From contig CM066295.1 in assembly GCA_033816765.1 (NCBI GenBank), forward strand, positions 682,001 to 746,000: a stretch of DNA of 64,000 nucleotides, read 5' to 3'. Under the pieces are notes generated by a model. The model worked only from the letters and a program-made list of their open reading frames with translations, did not search any database and was not told where the DNA came from. Position numbers and translations under genes: made by a program. Every line of letters begins with the position of its first letter. The first letter of the stretch is position 1. This document shows, piece after piece, positions 4,077-61,659 of the stretch. This stretch comes from Nothopassalora personata (Eukaryota > Ascomycota > Dothideomycetes > Mycosphaerellales > Mycosphaerellaceae).

Positions 4077-4205
4077 CGAGCCTACTCTAAGGAAGAACGA
4101 CGTTAAGGCTACTAAGCTAGACCTCTTCTATAGAGACAGAGCTAAGTTCGACGACTAGATCAATTAGATAGATATATACCTTATATTTAACCTAGTCGAT
4201 GCCGA

Positions 4206-4283
4206 GTCGTCCTATAGAGAGCGCCTTCACGCGGCGGACGACGTAAGTATCTTCGTTACGACGAAGAGAAACTAAGACTCTCT
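4206..4283 (+). ncRNA. HDV-like self-cleaving ribozyme, copy 1
   Basis: The first 78 nt fit the HDV nested double pseudoknot. P1: GTCGTCC (4206-4212) with GGACGAC (4236-4242). P2: AGAGAG (4216-4221) with CTCTCT (4278-4283). P3: GCC (4223-4225) with GGC (4233-4235), whose loop TTCACGC resembles the L3 loop of the mammalian CPEB3 ribozyme. The second P3 strand runs straight into P1, as it should. P4: TCTTCGT (4250-4256) with ACGAAGA (4261-4267), loop TACG. The P4-P2 joiner holds ACTAAG, offering C4272 as the catalytic cytosine. Cleavage would fall before G4206, exactly the boundary of the target duplication. Known family role: R2, RTE and L1Tc-type retroelements use such ribozymes to trim their RNA 5' end. 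The fold was read by eye, not computed. Confidence 0.8.
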
Positions 4284-4978
4284 CTCTCGAAAAATACAAG
4301 CCTACTCGACTCGAAACAAGAAAAGACAGGTCGGACGAACCGAACGAACGAGATACGCTCAAAATCTACAAACAAGAACTCCGGAACTGCGAGAAGGGAA
4401 AGCGACGTACATAGCGTACACGTCGCTCGAACAACGAAGGCGCTGTCTACCTGTCGTCCCGGCAAACCACGTAAACTGCCGGCTGGAACCAAGAGAGGCG
4501 TTTAGGGGCGCAAACCACGTATACTGCACGGCTGGAACCAAGAGAGGCCGAGGGGGGGACGACAGCGAGGCCACTGCGACCGAGGAGCTACACTCGAGAC
4601 CGGAGAACGCGACTGGATTTGAAACAGAGGCAACGGGTGTTTCTTGGGATTTTGCTCGGTGCGTACGGGTACGGCCGGCTTGGCTTTTTAAAACAAGAAC
4701 GAGACACGGGCGCAAAACTTGTCTCGCCCGGGGCAAGGCGACAAACCGCAATTCTCGACAAGACACGACTACCGGGTACGCGCGTACTACGCGCGTACTA
4801 CGCCGCAATATATTCGATTTACGGTTCGAATAGCGAGCGTTGCTCGCATCTTTTAAGGAGTTTTTACGTCCGGGGTACGACGGGGCTTTTCTCCTTCTCT
4901 CAAATTTTGGTCTCGTTCTCGAGACCCGTGTTGCATAGTCTTTGACTCAAATAGCACGTTAATGGAATAATCAATCAA
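4206..4978 (+). mobile_element. SINE-like retroposon E, copy E1
   Basis: A 773-bp unit present three times in the window and nearly identical (E2, E3). It starts GTCGTCC and ends in a short (AATC)n tail. The flanking duplication is 13 bp (tagtcgatgccga, 4193-4205 and 4979-4991) and is 11-14 bp at the other copies. Variable, long duplications and a simple-repeat tail are hallmarks of LINE-type target-primed reverse transcription. No convincing protein is encoded, so it resembles a long SINE moved by a partner LINE not seen here. Its 5' end folds as an HDV-like ribozyme. Inside, a ~37-bp stretch is duplicated (about 4460 and 4510). Hairpins stand at 4833-4847 and 4909-4926. E1 alone has a 12-bp tandem duplication near 4778-4801. 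No RIP footprint. Confidence 0.82.
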
Positions 4979-7900
4979 TAGTCGATGCCGATAAAAGAAC
5001 TATCTTCGCTATTACGTACCTTCGTGGAAGTGCGTAGAACTGGATCAAACCTTACCTTAAGGAATACCTTAAAGGTATAGGACGATTAGACCCTACTAGA
5101 ATGTTTAGGAGCTACACCCTTTTTAAAGAGAAGATAAAATTAATCTTTAGAACCTCGAACGAAGTCTAACAGGCTATACGAATCATTTAACACCTAAAGC
5201 AGAAGACGTCTACTTTAGAGTATGCCGCCAAATTCGAAGAATACGGACAAATCACTAGATAGGACTAGACGGCGTTAATAACTATGTTCCGACGTAGACT
5301 TAAGGACTCCGTTAAGGACGAGTTAATAAGACACGGGGGACGGATTACTAACCTCGAAGAGCTAATAAAGGCGTCGATTAACATCGATAACCAGCTCTAG
5401 GAACGACACTAGGAGAAGAAATACGACTCTAAAGTAGGAGGAATAGTAGGATATGCTCCGGACCGTAGACCCTTAGGAGGATACGTTACGAAGGGAGAAT
5501 TCTCACGACAAAGCCAGCCCTACTATAGACCACAGCCAATAGAACTAGACGTTACCTAACGAGGACGGAGGATCGATAAGAGTAGGGGCTACGGAAAGCC
5601 CTTTAAAGGAAAAGGAAAACTTATATGTTATACCTATAGTAAAGAAGGCTACATAGCACGGGATTGCCACGGTAAGAATATAGTACGCCGCGAGCAGTTT
5701 AATATAATACAACCCCGAACTAGTAAATCTAAGAGTAGCGTTAGATCTCGAGGAGATACCGACTATACTCGGAGAGTAGAGGAGAGAGCTAGTAATAGAA
5801 ACACGACGCCTCTCCTAGACCCCTTAGAAGGACGAGGAGGATACTATAGGCAGCAAATGGTAGTTATTCCATTTAATGCGAAGAACCAACTACGACAGTT
5901 TAACATAATAACACGAAGAGTCGACTACGAGATCGAATCCGAGTCTCGAAATAGTCATAGAAGCCTTCATTAGCGATTCTGTTACTAAGACTCGTGTTAA
6001 ATCTACTACGCCGCGAAGTTAGGCGTAGGGTATTAGCCTTAGTAACTACGAGGAACCCTAGGAGCGACGTATAGGCAAGACGCTACGCTCCGAGAAGTAG
6101 ACATCGACGAATCCTATTTTAATAAAGATAGAAGCGATAAAGAAAATCAGGACCTAGGATAGAACGAATCGTAGTTACTAGAACTATAAGAAGAAAGTTA
6201 AGAAACTACCGGGCTAAGTACTATCGAGGAAGACTAGGATCCGGAAGAATTAAGTAAAGAAGATTCCTCCGAAGGAGAAGAGAGCGACACTAACGACGAT
6301 AACGAACAACTTACCTTCACGGTAGATGCACCTAAGAGACTATACGACATAATTATCTACCTATAAAGAAGGCACGAGGAATTCCTACCTAAGATAGGTA
6401 GACGAAGGAAGCTACATTCTATTAAGTTTAATAAGACACTCGACACCCTACGAGGCATAGCCTAGGGATACCTACTTATGGAAACAACCGAAAACCTAGT
6501 AACCGCTATTATAGAACGACTACCTATAGGAAGCCGAATAACAGGTACCGGGTACTAAACACTAGTAGGAACTTTCGTCTTAAACGAACTACGAACAGCA
6601 GTATAGTACGTACGGGCTCTCTACTTAGAAACGTAAAAGATCTAGGAACGTAACAGATTACAAGTGTAGACATAGGGCAACGGGCTACAGGTTCTAGCCG
6701 AAGCCTCTAGGCACGAAGTATAGCAAACTACATACTATTCGGGAAAAGGATTAGCTCCCTAGGAATAAGCAACCGGAGGGAGTTATGCAATACTTAGGCT
6801 TATGCATCGACATTAAACACAGTTTTCTAGACATAAGCAATCGTTAACGGACATAAGACTAGTGTTATGATCGACTTAGGAGTAGCGGGGAATTTTATCT
6901 CCGAGTCTTTTATAAGAAGAAACGGGTTAGCTACCCTAAAGAAGAAATAGGGTTACGAGTTAATCGCGGTAAACGGATTATCGTTACCTAGCGTAGAATG
7001 GGAGACGACACTATTGCTACTAGCTATCTAATAGTACTACGAGAATATTACCTTAGATATTACTAATATAGCTAGTTATAACATAGTATTAGGTATACCT
7101 TAGTTAAGAAAGCACAATCTAGTAATCGACTAGAGAAGAGGAGTACTTACATTTAGGGAATGCGATTACGTTATCGACATTTAGCCTACGTAGTAGTAGC
7201 GTTCACTAGTAGATAAGGTAAGGAAATAGCTAAACGAGATATAGCTTACGCCGACTAGAAGGATAGAAGAACTACCTTCGACCGGGATAGACACTAGCGT
7301 AGGGCCGCCGGGTTACGAAGTTACTAGAAGTAATAGAAGTAACGCACTATCGAAGAATACTAACATCTTAGAGTTGAGTATTCCTAAGGAGTATCGCAAG
7401 TAGTCGCGACTCTTTAAAGAGGAGAGAGGCAAAACCGCCTTACCTAAGCACCGCCTATAGGATTACAAGATTAACATTTAGCTAGGGAAAGAGCCTCTAT
7501 AGGGACCCCTATATTAAATGTCTAAGAAAGAGCTGTAGACCCTACGAGAATAGCTAAAGGAGAAGCTAGCTAAAGGATAGATAAGAAGATCTACCTTAAG
7601 TGTAGGAACTCTATACATGTTCGTTCTAAAAGTAAACGGGAAGTTACGACTCGTATAGGACTATAGAAAGTTAAACGAGATTACGATTAAGAACCGATAC
7701 CCGCTACCTAACATCGAAGAAGCATAAGACAGATTAACCGGATCGGACTAGTACACGAAGATTAACCTACGAGATGCCTTCTATGCTATACGAATAGTAG
7801 AAGGAGAAGAATAGAAAACCGCCTTTAGAATAAGATACGGACTCTACGAATTCTTAGTTATGCTAATAGGATTAACTAACGCACCCGCATCCTATTAGGA

Positions 7901-9592
7901 CCTTATTAACGAGACACTTAGAGACCTACTCGACGTATGCGTTATCGCCTACATAGACGATATACTAGTCTATACGAAAGGATCCCTATAAGAACACATA
8001 AAACAAGTCTAGGACGTCTTCGAACGACTTACGCAATTAGGATTCAAGACGGTACCCAAAAAATGCGAATTCCATAAGAAAGAAGTTAAATTCTTAGGCT
8101 TCATTATTAGTACTATAGGGATAACGATCGACCCTACGAAGACATAGTTAATTAGAGAATAGCTAGAACCGAAAACAGTTAAGGACGTACAATCATTCCT
8201 TAGACTAGCGAACTACAACCGGAAATTCATTAAGGATTACTTAAAGACAGCAGCACTAATAACGATGCTTATAAGAAAGGACGTCACTTAGAAATAGGGA
8301 AAGGAACAGATTGAAGCATTTAAGAAACTTAAGGAACAATACGCTTTAGCCCCTACGCTTCGACTATTCGATAGTAGCAAGGAAGTCCACATCGAGACCG
8401 ATACGTCTAATATAGCAATAGGCGCGTGTCTAACATAGACATACGATGGGTAGAGACACCTAGTAGTCTATTACTCCCGGAAAATAACCATAGCGGAACA
8501 GAACTACGACATCTATAATAAAGAGCTTCTAGCTATTATTACTACTATATAACATTAGAGAGTATATGTCGAGGGCCTACCGAAGTTAACGATTCTTTCT
8601 AACTATAAGAATCTTACGTACTTTATAACGACGAAAGAACTTACCCGAAGACAAGCCCGCTAGTCGGAGCTACTAGGACAGTATAAGTTCGAAATTAAAT
8701 ATACTCTAGGACGAGAGAACGGCCGCGCCGACGCGCTAAGCCGAAGAAGCGACTATATAGAAGGAAAAGAACTAGTACAACATAAAATATTAAAGACGAA
8801 CCCCGACGGAAGTCTTAGTACTCACATAAGAGAATTTAATAACATCGTACGGATATTAGGCGATAGGGACGAACAATTCCCTATATCGTAAGGAAAATAC
8901 TAGGTACTAAAGGATCGAGAAGAAGAATGTAAACGATAACATTACGACGGACTAACTTATAGACACCCCGGAACTTTAAAAACGATAGACCTAATATAAC
9001 GCAGTTTCTCATTTCCATAGATAAGACTTAAGGTGTCACGCTACATTAAACAATGCGTACACTACTAACGAAACAAGGCTACGAGACACGTAAAATACGG
9101 TCACCTACAGTTTAGGACACTACCGATAAAACCATAGGACGAAGTTACAATAGACTTTATTACGAAACTCCTACCGTTAAAGGATTAAGTTACGAAACAA
9201 CCATACGACATAATACTAGTTATGGTTAATAGACTTACGAAATACGCACACTTTATTCCTATATCGGAAACGTATAATGTAGAGTAGCTCGGATACCTCG
9301 TACTAGATAGACTTATCCGATACCACGGATTCCCTTAAGTGTTTATAACGGATAGGGACAAGCTATTCACATCAAATTACTAGAAGACGCTTATAGGAAC
9401 GATCGGAATTAAACATAAGCTATTAATAGTATATCATCCGGAGATAGACGGACAAACCGAAAGGATGAATTAAACGCTAGAACAATACCTACGACACTAC
9501 ATCAATTATGCATAAGACAACTAGGTTTCATTACTACTAATAGCGTAGATTGCACTAAACAACCACAAATCGGAGACAACTTTAACGACGCC

Positions 9593-9670
9593 GTCGTCCT
9601 ATAGAGAGCGCCTTCACGCGGCGGACGACGTAAGTATCTTCGTTACGACGAAGAGAAACTAAGACTCTCT
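9593..9670 (+). ncRNA. HDV-like self-cleaving ribozyme, copy 2
   Basis: The 78-nt 5' end is identical to that of E1: P1 at 9593-9599 with 9623-9629, and P2, P3, P4 at the same spacing. Candidate catalytic C at 9659. It again begins at the first base after the target duplication. Confidence 0.8.
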
Positions 9671-10357
9671 CTCTCGAAAAATACAAGCCTACTCGACTCG
9701 AAACAAGAAAAACAGGTCGGACGAACCGAACGAACGAGATACGCTCAAAATCTACAAACAAGAACTCCGGAACTGCGAGAAGGGAAAGCGACGTACATAG
9801 CGTACACGTCGCTCGAACAACGAAGGCGCTGTCTACCTGTCGTCCCGGCAAACCACGTAAACTGCCGGCTGGAACCAAGAGAGGCGTTTAGGGGCGCAAA
9901 CCACGTATACTGCACGGCTGGAACCAAGAGAGGCCGAGGGGGGGACGACAGCGAGGCCACTGCGACCGAGGAGCTACACTCGAGACCGGAGAACGCGACT
10001 GGATTGAAACAGAGGCAACGGGTGTTTCTTGGGATTTTGCTCGGTGCGTACGGGTACGGCCGGCTTGGCTTTTTAAAACAAGAACGAGACACGGGCGCAA
10101 AACTTGTCTCGCCCGGGGCAAGGCGACAAACCGCAATTCTCGACAAGACACGATTACCGGGTACGCGCGTACTACGCCGCAATATATTCGATTTACGGTT
10201 CGAATAGCGAGCGTTGCTCGCATCTTTTAAGGAGTTTTTACGTCCGGGGTACGACGGGGCTTTTCTCCTTCTCTCAAATTTTGGTCTCGTTCTCGAGACC
10301 CGTGTTGCATAGTCTTTGACTCAAATAGCACGTTAATGGAATAATCAATCAAATCAA
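9593..10357 (+). mobile_element. SINE-like retroposon E, copy E2
   Basis: 765 bp, same unit as E1 and E3, inserted in the integrase region of A1 with an 11-bp duplication (ttaacgacgcc, 9582-9592 and 10358-10368). The tail is (AATC)-type with one extra unit compared with E3. It differs from E1 by a few single-base changes and by lacking the 12-bp internal duplication. No RIP-type change. Confidence 0.82.
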
Positions 10358-10998
10358 TTAACGACGCCATTTTATACGAACTTTAGTAAAGATCCTAACC
10401 TATTCGGAACACCTAGATCCTATCTACAGGCCGAGAGAGTAATCGTAACGACGGATACTCTTAAGGAAGTGCATAAAGAAACACGTAAGGCGATCGAAGA
10501 TGTATAACGAAAACTGTCTTAACAACGGTAGGACACGAGAAAAATGGCACCTCTACTAAAAGAGGGGGATAAGGTCTATCTCCTTACAAAAAACTTGAGA
10601 ATAAGAAGATAGACCAAGAAACTAGATCACGTTAAGGTCGGACCATTTTTAATCGACAAAGTCGTAGGACTAGTTAACTATCGACTACGACTACCACCTA
10701 ACGTAAAAATCCACCTAGTCTTCTATATCTCTAAGCTAGAACCCGTAGACGCTAGAACACCTTACTAAGAGAGCTTCTATTTTAAGCCGGAAGTAGAAAA
10801 CGAATTTAAAGTCAAAAAAATCCTAGATAAAAAGGGTTAGCGATACCTTATTAAATGGAAGGGATACGACGAATTAGAAAATACCTAGGAACTAAAAGAA
10901 AACCTACGAAACTGTTAGCAGAAGATTCGGGAGTATTAAAACGGCGCTTACTTAGAAGTAACTATACTATAAGACATAGTAACTTTTAAGTAAACGGA

Positions 10999-11072
10999 CG
11001 ACTAGAGTAGGAATCGAACCTACGACCTTAAGAGTGTAGACAGCTTACGCTCTACCACTAAGCTACCTAGCC
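10999..11072 (-). tRNA. tRNA-like gene inside A1, antisense to the element
   Basis: On the minus strand: acceptor GGCTAGG pairs with TCTAGTC (two G-U pairs), the D arm is GCTTAGTGGTAGAGC, and the T arm is GTAGG-TTCGATT-CCTAC with a perfect stem. Pol III A-box and B-box positions are therefore present. The anticodon arm is imperfect: stem TAAG/CTTA with an oversized loop, so I assign no anticodon. It lies between the chromodomain and the antisense frame; the same site is occupied in A2 and A3. It may be a captured tRNA gene that is decayed or lightly intron-bearing. Confidence 0.55.
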
Positions 11073-11112
11073 AATTGATAAGAACAGGGACATAACTTAT
11101 AAATAAATACCC

Positions 11113-12855: not shown

Positions 12856-14932
12856 GAGATCTCCTAGAAGAATCGGTCGGGGACCGGTAAGGGTTGTAGG
12901 AGGCCGTGTTTTTATTCCCTCTACACCTTATTCCTACCGTAGTAGTTATAGTTCCTTAAGAACTGCCTTACATGCTTAGACTATAGGGGCTAGTAGAAGT
13001 TACGACTTAGTATCGATGCTATAGAGTCCCGGCTAGGGTAGCCGTACACCGGTAAATCGTGCACGGATTAGATTAGCTTAGTTCGAAGGGTGTCGTTCTA
13101 TAGAATCGCTATGTCCGCCTCTTTATAGTCGGACTCCGTAGAACTAGGAGCTCTAGGCACCTAAATCCTACCGCGGTAGCGAAGATACCCGTTACGGTCA
13201 ATGCTATAGTTACCTACTTGTACCTTAAGTTTTACCTCGCTAGGAAGTAAACGCGCTCCTATCTTAATCGCGCGGTGTACCGCTTAGAACGTACTGTCCT
13301 TCTCGATAGTTCTTTCCTAGAGGTCGTTTAGCTCTTAGTCTTAGAAGGGTCCCTATAGTGCGCCCGGTAAATCCGCCTCTTCTATAGCGGATAGTCCTTC
13401 GAACTACGTAGCTAAGATTCGTACTAACGAAACCTTTATAGTCGAGCTAGCGTCTACTACCTTCGAGCCCGGCTAATTCTTTATAATGTCCGGTTTAAGA
13501 AATCTACGATACCGTAATAACTTGTCGTCCTACCTAAGCGTGTCCTACTCCCTTCGAGAAAGGGCATCCGGTACAATCGCCTCGGTACCCGGCCTATACA
13601 CTAGTAAAAACTAGAACTTTATAACTTCCTTAACCTACCGGATCTACCGTTCGGAGAGCTGTCTCTTCGTTATAAAGTATTCTAGGTTCTTGTAGTCCGT
13701 CTAGATTATAAAGGGCCTATATGTTTTTAACTCGGGAGCCTATTCCTTAAGACAGGACACTACCGCAAGTATCTCCTTATCGTAAATGTCGTAGTTAATC
13801 TTAGCCTTATTAAGCTTCTTCGAGTAGAATCCTACTAGTCTTACGACTCCGTCCTTTTCTTATAGGAGGGCGCCTCTAAGCGTAAAGCCGCTATAGTCCG
13901 TCTCTAAAAACGTAGGGAGCTCCGGGTTCTAGTAGGCTAAAACTAGTGCTTTATAGTACTTATCCTTTAGGGACTTAAACGCATTAGCCTAACGATCTCC
14001 CTAGGAAAACACCTTGTTCTTGCCGGTTAGCGACGTTAAGGGCTCGGCGAGCTTTAAATAGTTTAGAATAAACATTCGGTAGTAGTTCGCGAAGCCTAAG
14101 AACCGCCGCACTTCCTTCTAGGTAACTAGTGCCTTCTAGTCCTTTACTGCTACTACCTTTTCGGGGTCGGGTCCTACTCCTATCCCGTCGGCATATACGA
14201 TAAACCTAAGGTACTTAACCTTCTTCTATACGAACTTACACTTCCCTAGATCTAGGAAAAGGCCTCCGTCCTAAAGCTTCTAGAGCACGATACGAACCTT
14301 CTAGAAATAGTCCTCTTTTGTTCCGTCGGAGTAAATAACGACGTCGTTAGCGTAGGCCGAGGTAAAGTCGTCTAGGTAGTCCCGTAATAAACTGTTAATA
14401 TACCGCTAGAATGTTACGGGGGCCCCGGACAAACCGAACGGGCATACTAGCTATTCCTATAGACCGAATCTAGTTCAAAAAGCCGTCTTATACTCTTTAC
14501 CTCGAGCTATCCGGAGGTAATAGAATGCGGTAACAACGTTAACCTTCGTAATCTATCTAGCGCCCGTTAGGTTCCGAATAGTTTCCGAGATTAATAGAAG
14601 CGGGTAACGGTCCTACTTAGTAATCGAGTTTAGTACTCTATAATCGTAGTAGAACCTAAGTCCTCCCCCGGGCTTCTTTACGAACAGGACGGGAGCCGCC
14701 GCTTCTAAGGTAGAAGGGCGAATATAACCCTTACGCTATAGCTCCGTTAGCGACTTCCGGAGGATAAGTAGCTCGTCTTTTAACATACTATAGAGCGGTC
14801 CCTAGGGCAATAGTTCTAGGCTTCCGTCAGCTTCCGTCCGTATTTCGATCTTATAGTTAAGGTCGCCGCGGTATAGAGCTAGTTTATTAGCTTCCATAGT
14901 AGAAAATAACGGTAGCATATCCTAAAGTTCTA

Positions 14933-15010
14933 GTCGTCCTATAGAGAGCGCCTTCACGCGGCGGACGACGTAAGTATCTTCGTTACGACGAAGAGAAACT
15001 AAGACTCTCT
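14933..15010 (+). ncRNA. HDV-like self-cleaving ribozyme, copy 3
   Basis: Same 78-nt pseudoknot as E1 and E2, without a single change in the paired segments. Candidate catalytic C at 14999. It starts immediately after the target duplication. Confidence 0.8.
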
Positions 15011-15692
15011 CTCTCGAAAAATACAAGCCTACTCGACTCGAAACAAGAAAAGACAGGTCGGACGAACCGAACGAACGAGATACGCTCAAAATCTACAAAC
15101 AAGAACTCCGGAACTGCGAGAAGGGAAAGCGACGTACATAGCGTACACGTCGCTCGAACAACGAAGGCGCTGTCTACCTGTCGTCCCGGCAAACCACGTA
15201 AACTGCCGGCTGGAACCAAGAGAGGCGTTTAGGGGCGCAAACCACGTATACTGCACGGCTGGAACCAAGAGAGGCCGAGGGGGGGACGACAGCGAGGCCA
15301 CTGCGACCGAGGAGCTACACTCGAGACCGGAGAACGCGACTGGATTGAAACAGAGGCAACGGGTGTTTCTTGGGATTTTGCTCGGTGCGTACGGGTACGG
15401 CCGGCTTGGCTTTTTAAAACAAGAACGAGACACGGGCGCAAAACTTGTCTCGCCCGGGGCAAGGCGACAAACCGCAATTCTCGACAAGACACGACTACCG
15501 GGTACGCGCGTACTACGCCGCAATATATTCGATTTACGGTTCGAATAGCGAGCGTTGCTCGCATCTTTTAAGGAGTTTTTACGTCCGGGGTACGACGGGG
15601 CTTTTCTCCTTCTCTCAAATTTTGGTCTCGTTCTCGAGACCCGTGTTGCATAGTCTTTGACTCAAATAGCACGTTAATGGAATAATCAATCA
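14933..15692 (+). mobile_element. SINE-like retroposon E, copy E3
   Basis: 760 bp, inserted in B1 with a 14-bp duplication (atcctaaagttcta, 14919-14932 and 15693-15706). B2 shows the empty site near 63680 in the same RIP-altered form. Sequence nearly identical to E1 and E2. Confidence 0.82.
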
Positions 15693-16240
15693 ATCCTAAA
15701 GTTCTAGAGGCAAGCCCTTCTTAAGTTCCTCTCGCGTAGGCGGCTCCTTTTTACTAAGGGCTTTCTTAATATCTTCTACGGTTGCCGCGGCAATCGTAGC
15801 GAAACGCTTACCCGACTCGTATTCTTCGTAGTTACGCCCTTCGGGTACCTATTTCTTTACTAAGCTATAGTAGTACCGGCGCTTTTTAGGCGCGGTCCGG
15901 ATCTAATTGTGCGCCTTCTACGGGTTCCCTAGGATTATAGGGAAGTCTAGATTAGATACGACATAAGCATAAACTACCTAGTAGATCCCGGCAATTTCTA
16001 TACGGAAGGCGACTACTCCTTCGATCGAGTTCCGCATCGCCTTCGTAAACCCTATAGCCCTACGGCTCTCGTTACTAACATACGTAAGACCGAGGCCTTT
16101 CGCTAAGTCTCCGTTAATTATAGCGTAGTATATACATCCTTTATCGATAAGGGCAAACATTCCGTAACTTTCGTTTAGGAGTACGTTAGTATATACAAGA
16201 TTCCTATTTATAGAACTCTTAACTGCGTTCTACCCCTTTA

Positions 16241-40992: not shown

Positions 40993-43900
40993 TTAAGCGT
41001 TGCTGCCATTCGCAGAGGGTGCTAAGGAGGGGGTGCGTGGGTCTACGCCCTCCTCAGCCATGTTGAGGAGCTGCACAAAGCGTTGGTGTTTCTGCTTTGG
41101 CAGCAGCTTGGTAAGCCCGTCTGCTGGCATGTCGTTTGTGTTGAGATACTGGATCTCAATGTCTCCTCGCTGGTCTCGTTGACGCAGCCAGTGATGGTGT
41201 ATGTCAACATGGCGTAGCTTGGTGTCAAGCTTTTGCCCTTGTTGGTTAACAAGGCGGATGGTTTGGGTGTTGTCACAGTACAGGTAGGTGCGCTGGTTGA
41301 ACTCGAGATGGATCTCGGCGAAGATGCGTTCCCACTGGATCAGCTCTGATGCCGCTTGTGACAGGCCAAGGAGTTCGGCTTCGGTTGAGGACTTAGTAAC
41401 AGTGATCTGCTTGGATGCTTTGTAGTCGACTGGTCCGCCGAAGAGCATGAAGATCCATCCGCTAGAGCTGGTCCTGTCGACGTTCATGCCGTAGGAGGCA
41501 TCTGATGCGCCAAAGAATTCATGGTTCTTGCCGAGATGTTCAGGCTGACTATGTAGGCCAGTAATGTGCTTGCTGGCGCCATACACAAGGCAGAGGTTCT
41601 TAGTCTCTAGGAGGTAGCGCAAGCACTGATCCGCAAGCTTCAGATGTGTGTCCGTTGGCTTGGTCAGGTACTGCGAAAGCATTGACAGGGAAAAGGCAAT
41701 GTCCGGGCGTGTGTGTGTTGCTGCGAAGTTCAGAGACCCAATACGCTGTTGGTACGCAAGGATCTTCATGGGGTCTGCAACATGGCCCTTAGGCACTGTC
41801 CAGTCGAGGTGTTGATCCACTGGCACTGTTGTCTTGCGTGCGCTGGTGGATATGCTGAACTTAGCGGCGAGCTTCTCAATGTAGTCCTCTTGTGAGAGCC
41901 ATAGCAGTCTCTTTTGCCGGTCTCGTGTTACCTTGATTCCTAGAAACCAGGCAAGATCTCCAAGCTCGTGCATCTCGTACTTGGCAAGCAGACGCTTCTT
42001 GATGCTAAGTGCATGGTCCTTGTGCTTGCGGTGATACAGCATGACCAGGTCGTCCACATAAAAGAAGAACATGACCTTGTTATTAAAGTAGATGCATTCG
42101 GAGTCCGAGAGAGGAACCATTCCAAGGGAGGCCAGCGTCTCGGTGAGGGAGTTGTACCACAACAAAGGGGACTCCTTCAGTCCGTAGAGGGCCTTGACTA
42201 GTTTGAGAGCGTGTCCATCGGCAGGGCGATCGATTCCAGGAGGCGGCTGTAGATACATAGTGTATGGCAGGTCTGAGTTCAAGAAGGCGTTGACAACATC
42301 AAACTGTTCAGCTTCTAGGTCGAAGCTCGCGGCCATAGCACAGCAGAGGCGAAACATGCTTGCTGGCAATGTAGCGGCGTATGTATCCAAGTGTGTGCCC
42401 TGTAGATCGCCTCTTGCGCATAGCCGGGCCTTGAAGCTCTTTAGCATGCCATGCTCATCCAGCTTGTACTTGTACACCCACTTCAGCGGCAGTGGTGGCT
42501 GAAGTCCCTCCTCTTCTTGCTGAGCATCATGATCCTTCTCTTGCTGAGTTGCCCATTTGAATGTGCCAGTAGAGATTGCCTTGGCAAACTCCTTGGCCAT
42601 AGCTTCACGCCATTGTTGGGCGAAGCGGTGCTTCATGGCGGCACGGTAGTTCAGAGGTTCGGGCGGAAGGTCATCGCGGTGCATCGACGTGATGGTGTTG
42701 ACACGGCGTGTGGGGGAGGATCGGCGTGTTCGTACGACATCGTGGTGCTTAGGTCTCGGGCGGATGCCCGCCATCTGGCTGATGACAACGTTAGCGACCA
42801 TGATATTGTGCAGAGCATGGTGGAAGTAGGCGGTTCGGAGCCTCTTCCCAGTGTCGGTGAGGGTGTAATTAGTGTCAGCGGAAAAGTCATCCATTTGGCT
42901 GAGTTCTTCGAAGGGGATTGCTGAGGGGGGAGGAGCGGCAGCGACGTCTGAAGTCGTCGAAGCATCTGCTTCTGCCATAATCTCCTCACGATCTTCCTCT
43001 GTGAGGGCATCCATCAACTGCTGTTGCAGTGTGTTGATGTACTGTTGTTCAGACGCGTCACTGTTGTTTACCGCGTTGTTGTTGTAGTCAGAGTTCTCTG
43101 TGCTCTCATTGGTCGCTGGTTCGACCCCGGATTTGACCTGGTCTCGTGAAAGTGCAGGGGTTATAGCGTCATTTGTTAATGGCCAATCAGGTGGCTCGAA
43201 ACTGCTGCCACTTTCTAGGTGGTTGAATGCTGCTGAGGAGCGGTGCTCTGGCCAGTGTGGTTCTTGCCCAAGGAGGAGTTGATGGGCGTTTTGATGGTAT
43301 TGACGAGGGTTTTGATGGAGCGGCTGCTGTTGGGCCTGTTCTTCCACCCCCTCGGCCTGTAGTGTGTCGTGCTCATGGTGAGCCACATACAGGTCGTAGT
43401 ACTGTTCAGGCTCTTCAGCCGGTTCTGCCGTCGCGATGTTCTCAACAGGGGTTGAGTAACCAGCAGTGAGAATTGATGGGTCGTAGAACGTGGTCTCATC
43501 AAAGAGGACGTCCTTTACCCGCATAACCCTATCTTTCGATGGGTCCCACACCCTGTAGATGTTGGTGGAGTCGTAGCCCACAAGGTATCCGATCAGTGCT
43601 CGTTCTTTGAGCTTCTCAGTCTTGCCTGGTTGAGTGGTGCCATGAATGTACACGTAGGCTAGGCAGCCGTACACCACCATGTGGCCCACATTTGGTACCC
43701 TGCCTGTTGCCAATTCGAAGGGAGTCTTCCAGCCTTTTGATTGGATTGGTGACCGCCATAGGATGTAGCAGGCTGCTGCGGTGCATTCGTTCCAGAGCTT
43801 CTCAGGTAGGCGAGCGTGGATGCGGATTGTGCGTGACATCGTGATAATGACGCCGCCCGCTCGTTCTGCTGGGTCCTGGTTTGCACTGTAATCAGCAGTG

Positions 43901-46191
43901 TTGTGCCATTCAATCTGGTTGCTGTTAATAGTGGAGCGGAATCTTTTTCCAATGGCTGGTTCGTTGTCGCTGTAGAAGCACACGAATCTGCGGCCAATGA
44001 AGTTGATGAAGCTCAACAGACTGTTGAAGCAGGCAAGGACTGATTGCTGGTCTCGGTTCTTGACGGTGAACTGAAAGTGACCATGGGTATCCAGATCGTA
44101 GAAGTGGACCATGTACCGGTCTCCGTTGTAGGCGGGTGTGAACTCAGCCAGGTCCATGGCCATGTGGCCATAGGGAGTCATTGCCCGAATAGGCGCCACC
44201 CGATTGGTGACCTTGTGTGCCTTGGCAAGACCACATGCTCTGCAATGTGCAGTGAGGGGTGCCTTGGGACTATCAGGTTTAATGATCACCCCCTCAACCC
44301 GATAGGGTAACTGGTTAATGCGGTCTGCACCAATATGGCCAAAGATTTGATGCCACTGGCGCCCGGAGAGCTTGCGGTGTTTGATGGGGCTTCTGCTGGA
44401 TGTAGCAGCGCCTTTAGTGCCCCCTGTGCTGTTCATTACTGCCAAAACGGTGCGGTCGCCGTTGGAGCCCTGAACAGGCGGTGTTTGCATGGTATCACCC
44501 TTGCCAATTGTGCTGATGAAGTGCGCTGTGCGGTGTTTCTCAGTAATCTTTGGCAGGATGCTCCCATCGGTGCTTGATGGCCATTGGTAGACCATCTCTG
44601 ATTGAGGCGGTGTGACCACCTTGAAGAAGGGGATTGTGCCAGTCGGGCGGTGTAGATCCATCAATTTGGTGTCATTGTGGTACACCGAATTAGTGCGGCC
44701 ATGCCACCAGAGTCCGGCTGCTTCCATGCGAGAATGAGAGATGACGTTCACATGAAAGCCTGGGCAGTAGGCAACATCCATGAAGTTGAATGAATACCCC
44801 TGTATCTTCATGTGAACACGCCCTATTGCTGCAATGGGGAACGTGGTGGTTCCAGCCTGGATGCAGGCGGTGGTTAGGCGCTCAGCAATGAACTCTACGC
44901 CCTGCTGATCATGGTGATTGATGACGTGGGTGTCCGAGCAGTTGTCGTATACCCAACAATCCCTGAAGTTGAAGCTTAATTGGCTTATTGAGCTTGAAAG
45001 GACAGTGAGGCCAGTGAAGCCATTTAGTGTTGTTTCGCCCTTAGCAATGGCCTTGTCGCGTTCTTCATCTGTGCCATAGCGATTGAGCACCTTCAAGAGA
45101 CGCTCACCATCGTCGCCCATGCAGTAGTTAATGAAGTTGATCCAGTGCTTCTTCCACTGCTCTGTGCGTTGATCTGGTGATGGGCGGATCTTGGGGTTGA
45201 TCACATCGCATTTGCCCAGCGACGGATGGCAATTGTCCTTGGGCTCGCCGGTGATGTTCCAGCAGCCGCTTGGCTTGTCACTGCTCTTGTTGTCCTTGTT
45301 GCCACGGTCACGGCTCTTGTTGCCGCGGCTGCGGCCACGCGTGTTGTTGTTGTTCCCACCCCCTGTGCCTGCTGTAGGTGCTGGGGTCGGTGGGACCTCT
45401 GGAGGATCGTGTTCGGCTGATGGCTCGCCTGCGAAGGTTGCAAAGACTGATCGACCGGTGGTTGTGACTGGTGTAGTGTCGCGGATCCATTCGAGGTATC
45501 GCTCAGTAAGCTTTGACAATGGCAGGCTTTCGCTATCGCGTCTCCACTCATTGTACAGAGCAGCACCAAATGCTGGTGCTTTCTGCTGAATGGCAAGCAG
45601 CAGATGCCTGCTGAGATCGTCGTGCTCGGCGTGCCTACACCTGGCCATCTTGGTCTGTAAGACAAGCCAGTCTGAGCACCAGTCGTCGATCCTCCGTGCT
45701 TGGCTCTTTTGAAGCCTGGACAGCTCAAGGGTGAGCTGCCGCTTACGCAGCATGTCGTCTGGACTATACTGGCCCTGCAGAGCCTTGTACTTGTCTCTGA
45801 GGGTCTTCTTACCGTGCATAAGCTCGTGCCCAAGATCGGTAGTGGTCCGAATTAGGTATGTAACCAACTTGGACCTAGCGGTAGCGAATAGGTCGTACTG
45901 CCGTTGCTTGCGGTCGGCATCAGACTGCTTGAGTTTGAGGAACTCACGATCTGCAGCCTTATTGCCTTCCTGTGCTGAATGGTATGCATCGTAGATCTCG
46001 TCCATGCTCATGTGCACAGGCTCGACAGGCTCCTGGGCGGTGCCGGTCGGATCCACATACTTCCAGATGTTCAGAGACTCTGCGTAGAGCTCTATTTGCC
46101 TGTCAAACTTGTCCCATTGGTCAGGGCTCTTGAGAACGATAGTAGCTTGCGGTAGGATACCGGTACTACCGGATGTCTCGGAAGTCGCCAT
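40993..46191 (-). CDS. Copia Gag-Pol polyprotein, 1732 aa
   Basis: Complete polyprotein for reverse transcription and integration in one frame without a Gag/Pol break. Gag about 1-300, ending in an Asn/Arg/Gly/Lys-rich RNA-binding tract (about 277-305) and a Cys/His cluster CWNIT...NCH that is not a standard CCHC knuckle. Protease motif VYDNCSDTHV with Asp416. Integrase zinc domain HQIFGH...CRAC at about 613-660 and core residues Asp680, Asp742, Glu776. RT about 1230-1460 with FDVVNAFLNSDLPY and active site YVDD (1378-1381). RNase H about 1560-1700 (DASYG, STEAELLGLSQ, HVDIHHHW). Integrase before RT is the Copia (Pseudoviridae) order. The start is the first ATG after the leader and matches Copia 1R, where it has become ATA. 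Translated as one piece and cut by its own protease; capsid assembly is cytoplasmic, integration nuclear. Confidence 0.96.
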   Translation of the reverse strand: MATSETSGSTGILPQATIVLKSPDQWDKFDRQIELYAESLNIWKYVDPTGTAQEPVEPVHMSMDEIYDAYHSAQEGNKAADREFLKLKQSDADRKQRQYDLFATARSKLVTYLIRTTTDLGHELMHGKKTLRDKYKALQGQYSPDDMLRKRQLTLELSRLQKSQARRIDDWCSDWLVLQTKMARCRHAEHDDLSRHLLLAIQQKAPAFGAALYNEWRRDSESLPLSKLTERYLEWIRDTTPVTTTGRSVFATFAGEPSAEHDPPEVPPTPAPTAGTGGGNNNNTRGRSRGNKSRDRGNKDNKSSDKPSGCWNITGEPKDNCHPSLGKCDVINPKIRPSPDQRTEQWKKHWINFINYCMGDDGERLLKVLNRYGTDEERDKAIAKGETTLNGFTGLTVLSSSISQLSFNFRDCWVYDNCSDTHVINHHDQQGVEFIAERLTTACIQAGTTTFPIAAIGRVHMKIQGYSFNFMDVAYCPGFHVNVISHSRMEAAGLWWHGRTNSVYHNDTKLMDLHRPTGTIPFFKVVTPPQSEMVYQWPSSTDGSILPKITEKHRTAHFISTIGKGDTMQTPPVQGSNGDRTVLAVMNSTGGTKGAATSSRSPIKHRKLSGRQWHQIFGHIGADRINQLPYRVEGVIIKPDSPKAPLTAHCRACGLAKAHKVTNRVAPIRAMTPYGHMAMDLAEFTPAYNGDRYMVHFYDLDTHGHFQFTVKNRDQQSVLACFNSLLSFINFIGRRFVCFYSDNEPAIGKRFRSTINSNQIEWHNTADYSANQDPAERAGGVIITMSRTIRIHARLPEKLWNECTAAACYILWRSPIQSKGWKTPFELATGRVPNVGHMVVYGCLAYVYIHGTTQPGKTEKLKERALIGYLVGYDSTNIYRVWDPSKDRVMRVKDVLFDETTFYDPSILTAGYSTPVENIATAEPAEEPEQYYDLYVAHHEHDTLQAEGVEEQAQQQPLHQNPRQYHQNAHQLLLGQEPHWPEHRSSAAFNHLESGSSFEPPDWPLTNDAITPALSRDQVKSGVEPATNESTENSDYNNNAVNNSDASEQQYINTLQQQLMDALTEEDREEIMAEADASTTSDVAAAPPPSAIPFEELSQMDDFSADTNYTLTDTGKRLRTAYFHHALHNIMVANVVISQMAGIRPRPKHHDVVRTRRSSPTRRVNTITSMHRDDLPPEPLNYRAAMKHRFAQQWREAMAKEFAKAISTGTFKWATQQEKDHDAQQEEEGLQPPLPLKWVYKYKLDEHGMLKSFKARLCARGDLQGTHLDTYAATLPASMFRLCCAMAASFDLEAEQFDVVNAFLNSDLPYTMYLQPPPGIDRPADGHALKLVKALYGLKESPLLWYNSLTETLASLGMVPLSDSECIYFNNKVMFFFYVDDLVMLYHRKHKDHALSIKKRLLAKYEMHELGDLAWFLGIKVTRDRQKRLLWLSQEDYIEKLAAKFSISTSARKTTVPVDQHLDWTVPKGHVADPMKILAYQQRIGSLNFAATHTRPDIAFSLSMLSQYLTKPTDTHLKLADQCLRYLLETKNLCLVYGASKHITGLHSQPEHLGKNHEFFGASDASYGMNVDRTSSSGWIFMLFGGPVDYKASKQITVTKSSTEAELLGLSQAASELIQWERIFAEIHLEFNQRTYLYCDNTQTIRLVNQQGQKLDTKLRHVDIHHHWLRQRDQRGDIEIQYLNTNDMPADGLTKLLPKQKHQRFVQLLNMAEEGVDPRTPSLAPSANGSNA

Positions 46192-53240: not shown

Positions 53241-53264
53241 ACTAGCGACTAGTTATCTAGGAGT

Positions 53265-53393
53265 AACTAAGATAGGAATCGAACCTACGACCTCCCTTCT
53301 AAACGGTAAAGTGTAAGGGAATAGTTAAGGGTATAAGCCGAAACAATTCCCCTATAACGCTAGAAGGACGCTCTACTACTAAGCTACTTAGCT
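53265..53393 (-). tRNA. tRNA-like gene with intron inside A2, antisense
   Basis: Minus strand: acceptor AGCTAAG with CTTAGTT (one G-U pair), D arm GCTTAGTAGTAGAGC, anticodon stem TCCTT with AGGGA (one G-U pair), T arm GTAGG-TTCGATT-CCTAT. Between the halves of the anticodon loop lie about 55 extra bases, at the usual place of a nuclear tRNA intron (after position 37). The loop would read C-T-AGC-G/A, that is anticodon AGC (Ala), which is tentative. No CCA is encoded. Confidence 0.6.
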
Positions 53394-61540: not shown

Positions 61541-61586
61541 GGTCCGCTGATATAACTAACGATAATCGATCTCTCGGCCGACGAGC

Positions 61587-61659
61587 GACTAGGGTAGGAA
61601 TCGAACCTACGACCTTAAGAGTATAGATAGCTTACGCTCTACTACTAAGCTACCTAGCC
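61587..61659 (-). tRNA. tRNA-like gene inside A3, antisense to the element
   Basis: Minus strand: acceptor GGCTAGG with CCTAGTC (one G-U pair), D arm GCTTAGTAGTAGAGC, T arm GTAGG-TTCGATT-CCTAC. Closely matches the A1 copy, with C-to-T changes in the oversized anticodon loop. No anticodon assigned. Confidence 0.55.

Follow-up and report, generated by a model that had tools for sequence, protein, structure and literature searches.

Introduction

Among the closest described systems is Pr77, a 77-nt HDV-like head at the 5' end of the trypanosomatid L1Tc/ingi LINEs and of the NARTc/SIDER SINE-like elements (PMC4035085; this and the other papers are cited from excerpts of their text). In R2, an HDV-like ribozyme frees the 5' end of the element from its co-transcript (PMC3774820, PMC3414825), and cleavage exactly at the element end accompanies variable 5' junctions (PMC3774820). 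The fungal SINEs MgSINE and the AfuSINEs are derived from tRNA or 5S sequences, and the 3' end of AfuSINE2-1a is common to a Tad-like LINE; the word 'ribozyme' is absent from the paper that describes them (PMC5063351). In the excerpts of two reviews (PMC7761336, PMC8256844), 'fungi' and 'fungal' occur 0 times, and hammerheads have been noted in fungi (PMC3088659). Among the matches listed by our searches of the literature, mostly papers outside subscription, there was no HDV-like ribozyme in a fungal retroposon.

Here we describe such a candidate in Nothopassalora personata. The window is the whole stretch of DNA that was analysed: 64,000 nt of assembly GCA_033816765.1, contig CM066295.1, positions 682,001 to 746,000 of the forward strand.

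Results

Three retroposon copies in the window

The window contains three copies of a non-coding retroposon, family A, each 760–773 bp long, flanked by target duplications of 11–14 bp and ending at the 3' end in a short (AATC)n tail. No ORF of at least 150 aa lies inside the element. The initial annotation placed a 78-nt head at 4206, 9593 and 14933, directly 3' of each copy's own target duplication, and this is where we find it. The first 119 nt are identical in the three copies, and the whole elements are 99–100% identical, compared block by block. Their coordinates are:

4193..4205, + strand: 5' target site duplication of copy 1, TAGTCGATGCCGA, 13 bp, read from the sequence
4206..4978, + strand: retroposon copy 1, family A (T4979 may be counted to the tail or to the duplication)
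4979..4991, + strand: 3' target site duplication of copy 1
9582..9592, + strand: 5' target site duplication of copy 2, TTAACGACGCC, 11 bp
9593..10357, + strand: retroposon copy 2, with its predicted ribozyme head at 9593–9670
10358..10368, + strand: 3' target site duplication of copy 2
14919..14932, + strand: 5' target site duplication of copy 3, ATCCTAAAGTTCTA, 14 bp
14933..15692, + strand: retroposon copy 3, with its predicted ribozyme head at 14933–15010
15693..15706, + strand: 3' target site duplication of copy 3

Further inside the element, window positions 4450–4550 carry two near-repeats of CAAACCACGTAnACTGC...GGCTGGAACCAAGAGAGGC, and a similar pair is present in the relic at locus L076.

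The predicted fold of the head

All four helices of the HDV double pseudoknot first described for the head, P1, P2, P3 and P4, are perfect in the window copies, and the proposed catalytic base, C4272, does lie in the ACTAAG of J4/2. With 4206 as base 1, the ribozyme has P1 at 1–7/31–37, P2 at 11–16/73–78, P3 at 18–20/28–30, P4 at 45–51/56–62 and J4/2 at 63–72, so numbered that C67 is 4272. In window coordinates the parts of copy 1 are:

4206..4283, + strand: HDV-like ribozyme head, 78 nt, predicted from the descriptor and pair counts
4206..4212, + strand: 5' strand of P1, GTCGTCC, with cleavage predicted just before 4206
4216..4221, + strand: 5' strand of P2, AGAGAG
4223..4225, + strand: 5' strand of P3, GCC
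4226..4232, + strand: L3, TTCACGC
4233..4235, + strand: 3' strand of P3, GGC
4236..4242, + strand: 3' strand of P1, GGACGAC
4250..4256, + strand: 5' strand of P4, TCTTCGT
4261..4267, + strand: 3' strand of P4, ACGAAGA
4268..4277, + strand: J4/2, GAAACTAAGA, with the candidate catalytic C at 4272
4278..4283, + strand: 3' strand of P2, CTCTCT

The word TTCACG in L3 is one that we take to be the word of the CPEB3 ribozyme. By reading, one C-G pair of P1.1 is possible between L3 and J1.1/4, C25-G38, position 38 not being invariant.

Chance matches, covariance models and nested folding

Our descriptor demanded a 7-bp P1, a 5-bp P2, a 3-bp P3, a P4 of at least 5 bp and CNAA in J4/2, with tolerances that were set with the sequence already in view. 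It found 18 starts in 40 x 64,000 bases of first-order Markov sequence derived from the window (about 7 per million bases) and 4 in 2.56 Mb at the element's own composition (1.6 per million bases). The real window gave starts at 4206, 9593 (and 9592) and 14933, plus two at 1062 and 32340. When A, G or T was put in place of the catalytic C, a control taken from work on the phage theta ribozyme (PMC10879173), the window gave 0, 0 and 3 starts, none of them at an element end.

The covariance-model match by which the initial annotation proposed to check the head did not appear: across the window, every ribozyme family in Rfam stayed below its gathering score. Among the HDV models RF02682 scored best, aligning from 4206 with 19.9 bits where its cut-off is 44 (E 0.45). 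This sub-threshold score is evidence neither way; the models describe particular lineages. A genome search with RF00094 returned no match, and its controls were equally silent. Nested folding of the 85-nt strand, by a folder that does not form pseudoknots, gave a z of 0.29, with 120 of 200 shuffles at least as good. RNAalifold on 18 copies returned 4 of the 7 P4 pairs, put P2 in another register and replaced P1 and P3 by other pairs.

Genome copies and their 5' junctions

We searched 54.5 Mb of genome in 40 contigs. An exact 25-base 5' core occurs at 278 places and an exact 26-base 3' end at 304; the reversed control patterns of both occur at 0. At least 40 near-full-length copies are present, and the best 40 of 460 candidates all begin at element base 1 and end within 4 bases, a full length that is no test of truncation since candidates were scored best first. 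Most exact copies among the matches listed are full length: on contigs C1–C4, among those matches, an exact 5' core lies 712–725 nt upstream of 69 of the 79 exact 3' ends, and 69 of 70 exact 5' cores have a 3' mate. The ribozyme is identical in 26 of the 30 copies fetched, and this high-copy family is apparently recent. At L077:1-325 we also noticed a partial copy of element A (bases 439–774, 96.7%) that ends at the locus edge.

Junctions were scanned in 32 oriented copies, the three in the window and 29 from L002–L030, with a duplication threshold of at least 9 bp. Such a duplication was readable in 26 of the 32, and none was readable in the other 6. The first P1 base adjoins the duplication in 24 of these 26, and one extra base stands between them in 2. 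Where a duplication is readable, then, copies differ in their 5' end by at most one base. No single base precedes the element: it is A in 17, C in 8, T in 5 and G in 2 of the 32 copies, and the flanks differ widely from copy to copy. In a scan that took in up to 1.5 kb of flank, each of the 29 loci held one intact copy, with one ribozyme per element.

Pairing in diverged copies

We aligned 27 distinct heads, consisting of pattern-found copies, two relics at L076, and L080, L081, L084 and L104. Patterns of up to 35 places served to find copies with a changed P4 or P1 base. About 20 of the 27 heads came through a pattern in which AGTA, GANACTAAG and a change at one P4 base were required, so that the conservation of those words is not independent evidence; pairing was not demanded. 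This pattern matched 26 places, of which 21 were retrieved; the other five comprise the family-like C6:5430801, three that resemble another repeat and one that looks like chance. The pattern with a changed fourth P1 base matched 9 places, of which L080 and L081 were taken and 7 stayed outside all counts; of the six P1 pairs that can be read in 35 printed bases, each of these 7 breaks one or more when set in the A register. A diverged P4 at C3:147175, seen as printed bases, is likewise outside the pair counts.

The HDV topology proposed for the head is kept in the alignment: 82.5% of 613 cells pair over the 27 copies, compared with 42.4–60.5% when the partners are slid by 1–3 columns. Compensatory change, which the annotation had proposed as one check on P1, P2 and P4, divides by measure. 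Two measures bear it out: doubly changed cells number 48 against 26.5 +/- 3.8 after shuffling, and the covariation score is 0.293 against 0.229, each value being reached in 0 of 500 shuffles. Two do not: 13 pairs show a double change against 11.3 shuffled (reached by 130 of 500), and there are 27 pair types against 29.7 (reached by 475 of 500). The same division appears in an in-register set of 18 copies, which leaves out five of family B (described below) and four with a 5' part that does not align. There 87.9% of 414 cells are paired and 18 are doubly changed against 10.1 +/- 2.4 (0 of 500), while the 7 pairs with a double change are reached by 158 of 500 shuffles and the pair types by 455 of 500. 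The shuffles ignore the relatedness of the copies, and their counts are not probabilities.

Decay of the kind produced by RIP complicates the reading of such changes. In the five LINE relics that could be aligned (L077, a sixth, could not), C>T and G>A together make up 1190 of the 1988 substitutions, and 879 of these fall at CA or CG. RIP-like decay acts alike on the two arms of a hairpin, whose context is the same, and can therefore mimic compensation, and we weighed C-G to U-A double changes with care because it can make them (the CTTTATTATAATAAAG copies). The evidence that survives this caution is a switch at P4 pair 3, the copy L104 and family B. P4 pair 3 is U-A in 21 of the 27 copies, A-U in 5 and unpaired in 1, a double transversion. 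Between L104 and the window copy, 8 of the 78 places are different. Among these, four make up two double changes, P2 A-U to G-C and P4 U-A to C-G, which, seen from the window copy, run opposite to RIP-like decay; the other four sit in J1/2, L4 and J4/2.

Read in the A register, single old copies have lost up to 5 of the 7 pairs of P1. Bases other than C at the catalytic place turned up at 4 places in a search for them (T, G, T and one without letters), and since most diverged copies were chosen by a pattern that demands the catalytic C, its presence in them is no independent count. Between P1 and P4, AAGTA (40–44) is kept in copies not chosen by pattern, namely those in the window, L104, L080, L081 and L076:1971-2048.

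A second family with an unrelated body

L080 and L081, which are 85% identical, represent a second family, B. Family B matches family A only over 72–80 columns at the 5' end (69–78%) and 98 columns at the 3' end (73–77%). In L081 the duplication, read by eye, is imperfect, TACTA[A/C]TATCTTTA, and the first base after it starts P1, GCCGTCT/AGACGGT, which has 6 Watson-Crick pairs and a terminal G-U. L080 begins after CCTAGGAAAGGTTT with TACCGTCT, and its P1, ACCGTCT, runs from the second base with 5 Watson-Crick pairs, 1 G-U and 1 broken. Three other B copies have 5' ends that are not fixed by a duplication (L076:1971-2048, L098 and L086), and their best P1 lies one base further in than that of family A; the P1 of L086 is poor (1 Watson-Crick, 4 G-U, 2 broken). 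P1 of family B stands in another register and, in the two copies with a readable duplication, begins within one base of the element's own 5' end; it is thus found at the 5' end despite a different sequence and body. Two unrelated bodies with only the ribozyme head and the LINE tail in common are what selection on both ends would leave.

In diverged copies, then, P1, P2 and P4 are on most measures kept by two-sided changes more often than in the shuffled and slid controls, which supports the HDV-like ribozyme first read from the window. We regard the HDV-like fold of the 78-nt head as almost certainly real, and self-cleavage by it, a prediction from that fold, as highly probable.

A LINE with the same tail

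A search with PF14529 gave 18 matches, 11 of which (L062–L072) form one LINE family without stops in the matched domain; 7 of the 11 keep the whole 1110-codon frame. In the LINE copy at L079, the upstream ORF (410 codons) matches nothing in Pfam, and a second one encodes endonuclease and reverse transcriptase domains; a 13-bp duplication, read by eye, flanks this copy. Relatives of the LINE protein include proteins from Sclerotinia, Hirsutella and Fusarium and one Trifolium pratense record; the named ones are mostly ascomycete. Many of these relatives carry RNase H, which by Pfam the protein here does not.

In a blastn comparison, family A meets the L079 LINE at the 3' end of the element only:

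4924..4979, + strand: 3' tail common to element A and the LINE, 56 nt, 94.6% against L079:5654-5709

The family B tail matches the LINE 3' end over 212 columns at 70–74%. At the other end, L079, L082 and L083 share a LINE 5' start at about CACCCTTA, by eye, and a relaxed HDV descriptor found no + strand match in these three LINE loci that hold the 5' region. We considered and rejected the idea that the ribozyme was copied from the 5' end of this LINE, as the likeness to the LINE is at the 3' end only and L079, L082 and L083 show no such head on the + strand. Two observations concern LINE 5' regions themselves. At L079:275-361, about 90 bases lie between the 13-bp duplication and the shared 5' start; they may have been added at the 5' end by transduction or without a template. 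A second LINE, at L061 and L105, shows no clear 5' end in the region fetched.

Element A has the features of a LINE-mobilised non-autonomous retroposon: its tail is also that of a LINE, a target duplication is readable in 26 of the 32 copies, and it has no coding capacity. Judged by the shared tail, this LINE is the likely source of its mobility. The term 'SINE-like' in the initial annotation holds only loosely; it does not extend to an origin from a small RNA gene, as no tRNA, 5S or other Rfam family is over its cut-off. A tRNA- or 5S-derived SINE was rejected on these grounds, together with the internal T runs. The element holds six runs of 4–5 T, which with the absence of any match to a Pol III RNA make a Pol III origin unlikely, and one B-box-like word, at 4823, lies far from the 5' end.

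Other repeats in the window and the genome

Three tRNA-like sequences lie on the minus strand of the window, at 10996–11073, 61585–61659 and 53264–53393, with 46–55 bits against Rfam tRNA. ARAGORN gives two of the three a CTA anticodon, and the upstream flanks of these two are alike (GGGTATTTATT...GTCCCT). Their appearance is that of a dispersed repeat bearing a tRNA, not of single genes, with an anticodon that is perhaps the result of C-to-T decay. At 40993–46191 (minus strand), the window holds an intact 1732-aa ORF with RVT_2 and retroviral SH3-like domains, a Copia-type LTR retrotransposon; a protein search with it gave 5 distant Copia-type matches, the best at 30% over a third.

In a PF00078 search, for which 150 of 1916 candidates were scored, we saw numerous stop-free reverse transcriptase ORFs whose scores are equal (e.g. 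L031–L060). Thirty of these loci we take, from integrase motifs in their ORFs, to be Ty3-like LTR retrotransposons. We read such ORFs as the product of recent retrotransposon bursts, standing beside heavily decayed relics. Another repeat family, with CTTCACGGACTRATTAGTG...TATACTAAG, occurs at many genome places, and one more carries CTTCACGATGTCCGGTTTAAGAAACC.

Discussion

How the element may be copied

The reading that we consider probable is that the predicted ribozyme frees the element RNA at base 1 and that the enzyme of the LINE copies this RNA from the tail to that end. The element would sit in a longer transcript, made by Pol II from the host or another element or begun just upstream. 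While emerging, the ribozyme would fold and cut just before 4206, freeing the 5' end of the element. The LINE's enzyme would then take up the shared 3' tail, target-primed reverse transcription would run to the cleaved 5' end, and the copy would be inserted with a 10–14-bp duplication. Since the cut would fall just before base 4206, each new copy would start there. Several results count against this reading or are neutral to it: the Rfam scores below cut-off, the outcomes of nested folding and RNAalifold, the two covariation measures that do not exceed shuffles, the mimicry of compensation by RIP-like decay and the broken P1 pairs of single old copies. A further one is the contrast with R2, which has variable 5' junctions where it is cleaved at the element end; the junctions here are uniform.

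It is tempting to go further and see the head as a portable, promoter-free ribozyme that is the sole 5' module of a non-autonomous class, passed between bodies, with a LINE partner that has none and with RNA obtained by self-excision from any through-transcript. We offer this broader idea tentatively and would put it somewhat short of an even chance.

The main rival gives the head another role, in which it is kept chiefly as a DNA promoter or as a structured RNA bound by the LINE protein, transcription starts at 4206 itself, and the fold is not, or is no longer, catalytic. A promoter with a fixed start would also give a uniform 5' end behind varied upstream bases, and for the trypanosomatid Pr77 head both functions, promoter and HDV-like ribozyme, have been reported (PMC4035085). 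AAGTA at 40–44, kept and not explained by the ribozyme fold, may belong to such a second role. However, a promoter needs neither pseudoknot pairing kept through double changes nor a P1 register that shifts with the 5' end in family B, and neither a Pol III RNA family over cut-off nor freedom from T runs, of which the element has six, speaks for one. On balance we find this rival unlikely.

It could also be that the ribozyme is active and HDV-like with its main use elsewhere, in trimming or destabilising the host mRNAs that copies land in or in resolving tandem or circular RNA of the element. In Leishmania, SIDERs with a ribozyme head are found in the 3' UTRs of mRNAs and are linked to instability (PMC4035085), and retrozymes use ribozymes to make circles (PMC4918200). 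Against this stand the single ribozyme of each element, the single intact copy at each locus (29 loci, up to 1.5 kb of flank) and the excerpted report that Pr77 in the 3' UTRs of downregulated mRNAs had no activity in vitro (PMC4035085). The exact match to the inserted 5' end fits release for retroposition best, and a main use elsewhere seems to us very unlikely.

A chance fold on a conserved repeat end could point to the missing Rfam match over cut-off, the nested-folding z near zero and the ability of RIP-like decay to mimic compensation, yet it is hardly credible when starts occur about 7 times per million bases and all three window elements start on one, when P4 carries a double transversion and when two families with unrelated bodies have the head in common.

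Comparison with known systems

Returning to release by a predicted ribozyme, element A resembles MgSINE, Foxy and AfuSINE in being a short non-coding fungal retroposon; MgSINE and the AfuSINEs differ from it by their tRNA or 5S origin. mgsr1 (800 bp) and Egr1 (700 bp) can be likened to it by length alone. With the Faecalibacterium prausnitzii HDV ribozyme (RF02682) it has the consensus CUAAG in common, at a score below the cut-off of that model.

Like R2 and the non-autonomous elements derived from it, the element has an HDV-like ribozyme, here a predicted one, at its 5' end. Unlike R2, which sits in the 28S rRNA genes and is released from the rRNA transcript, its copies lie between many different flanks and have uniform junctions.

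The likeness to Pr77 is that of an HDV-like head at the 5' end of short non-autonomous retroposons. In the trypanosomatid system, however, LINE and SINE share the head, whereas here the LINE copies L079, L082 and L083 show none on the + strand, two non-autonomous families with unrelated bodies share it, and the host group is different. The pair therefore falls outside the L1Tc/NARTc type, as the three LINE loci scanned show no ribozyme head on the LINE partner.

HDV-like ribozymes were known on animal and trypanosomatid LINEs and SINE-like elements; to judge from the literature searched, a fungal retroposon with a predicted one is likely new. With a high-copy, apparently recent case in fungi, the question of ribozymes and retroposons could be taken up in a kingdom whose laboratory genetics are good. 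As no such head is seen on the LINE partner, what the ribozyme does for retroposition could be separated here from the LINE's own transcription, a separation that is hard to make where LINE and SINE share the head.
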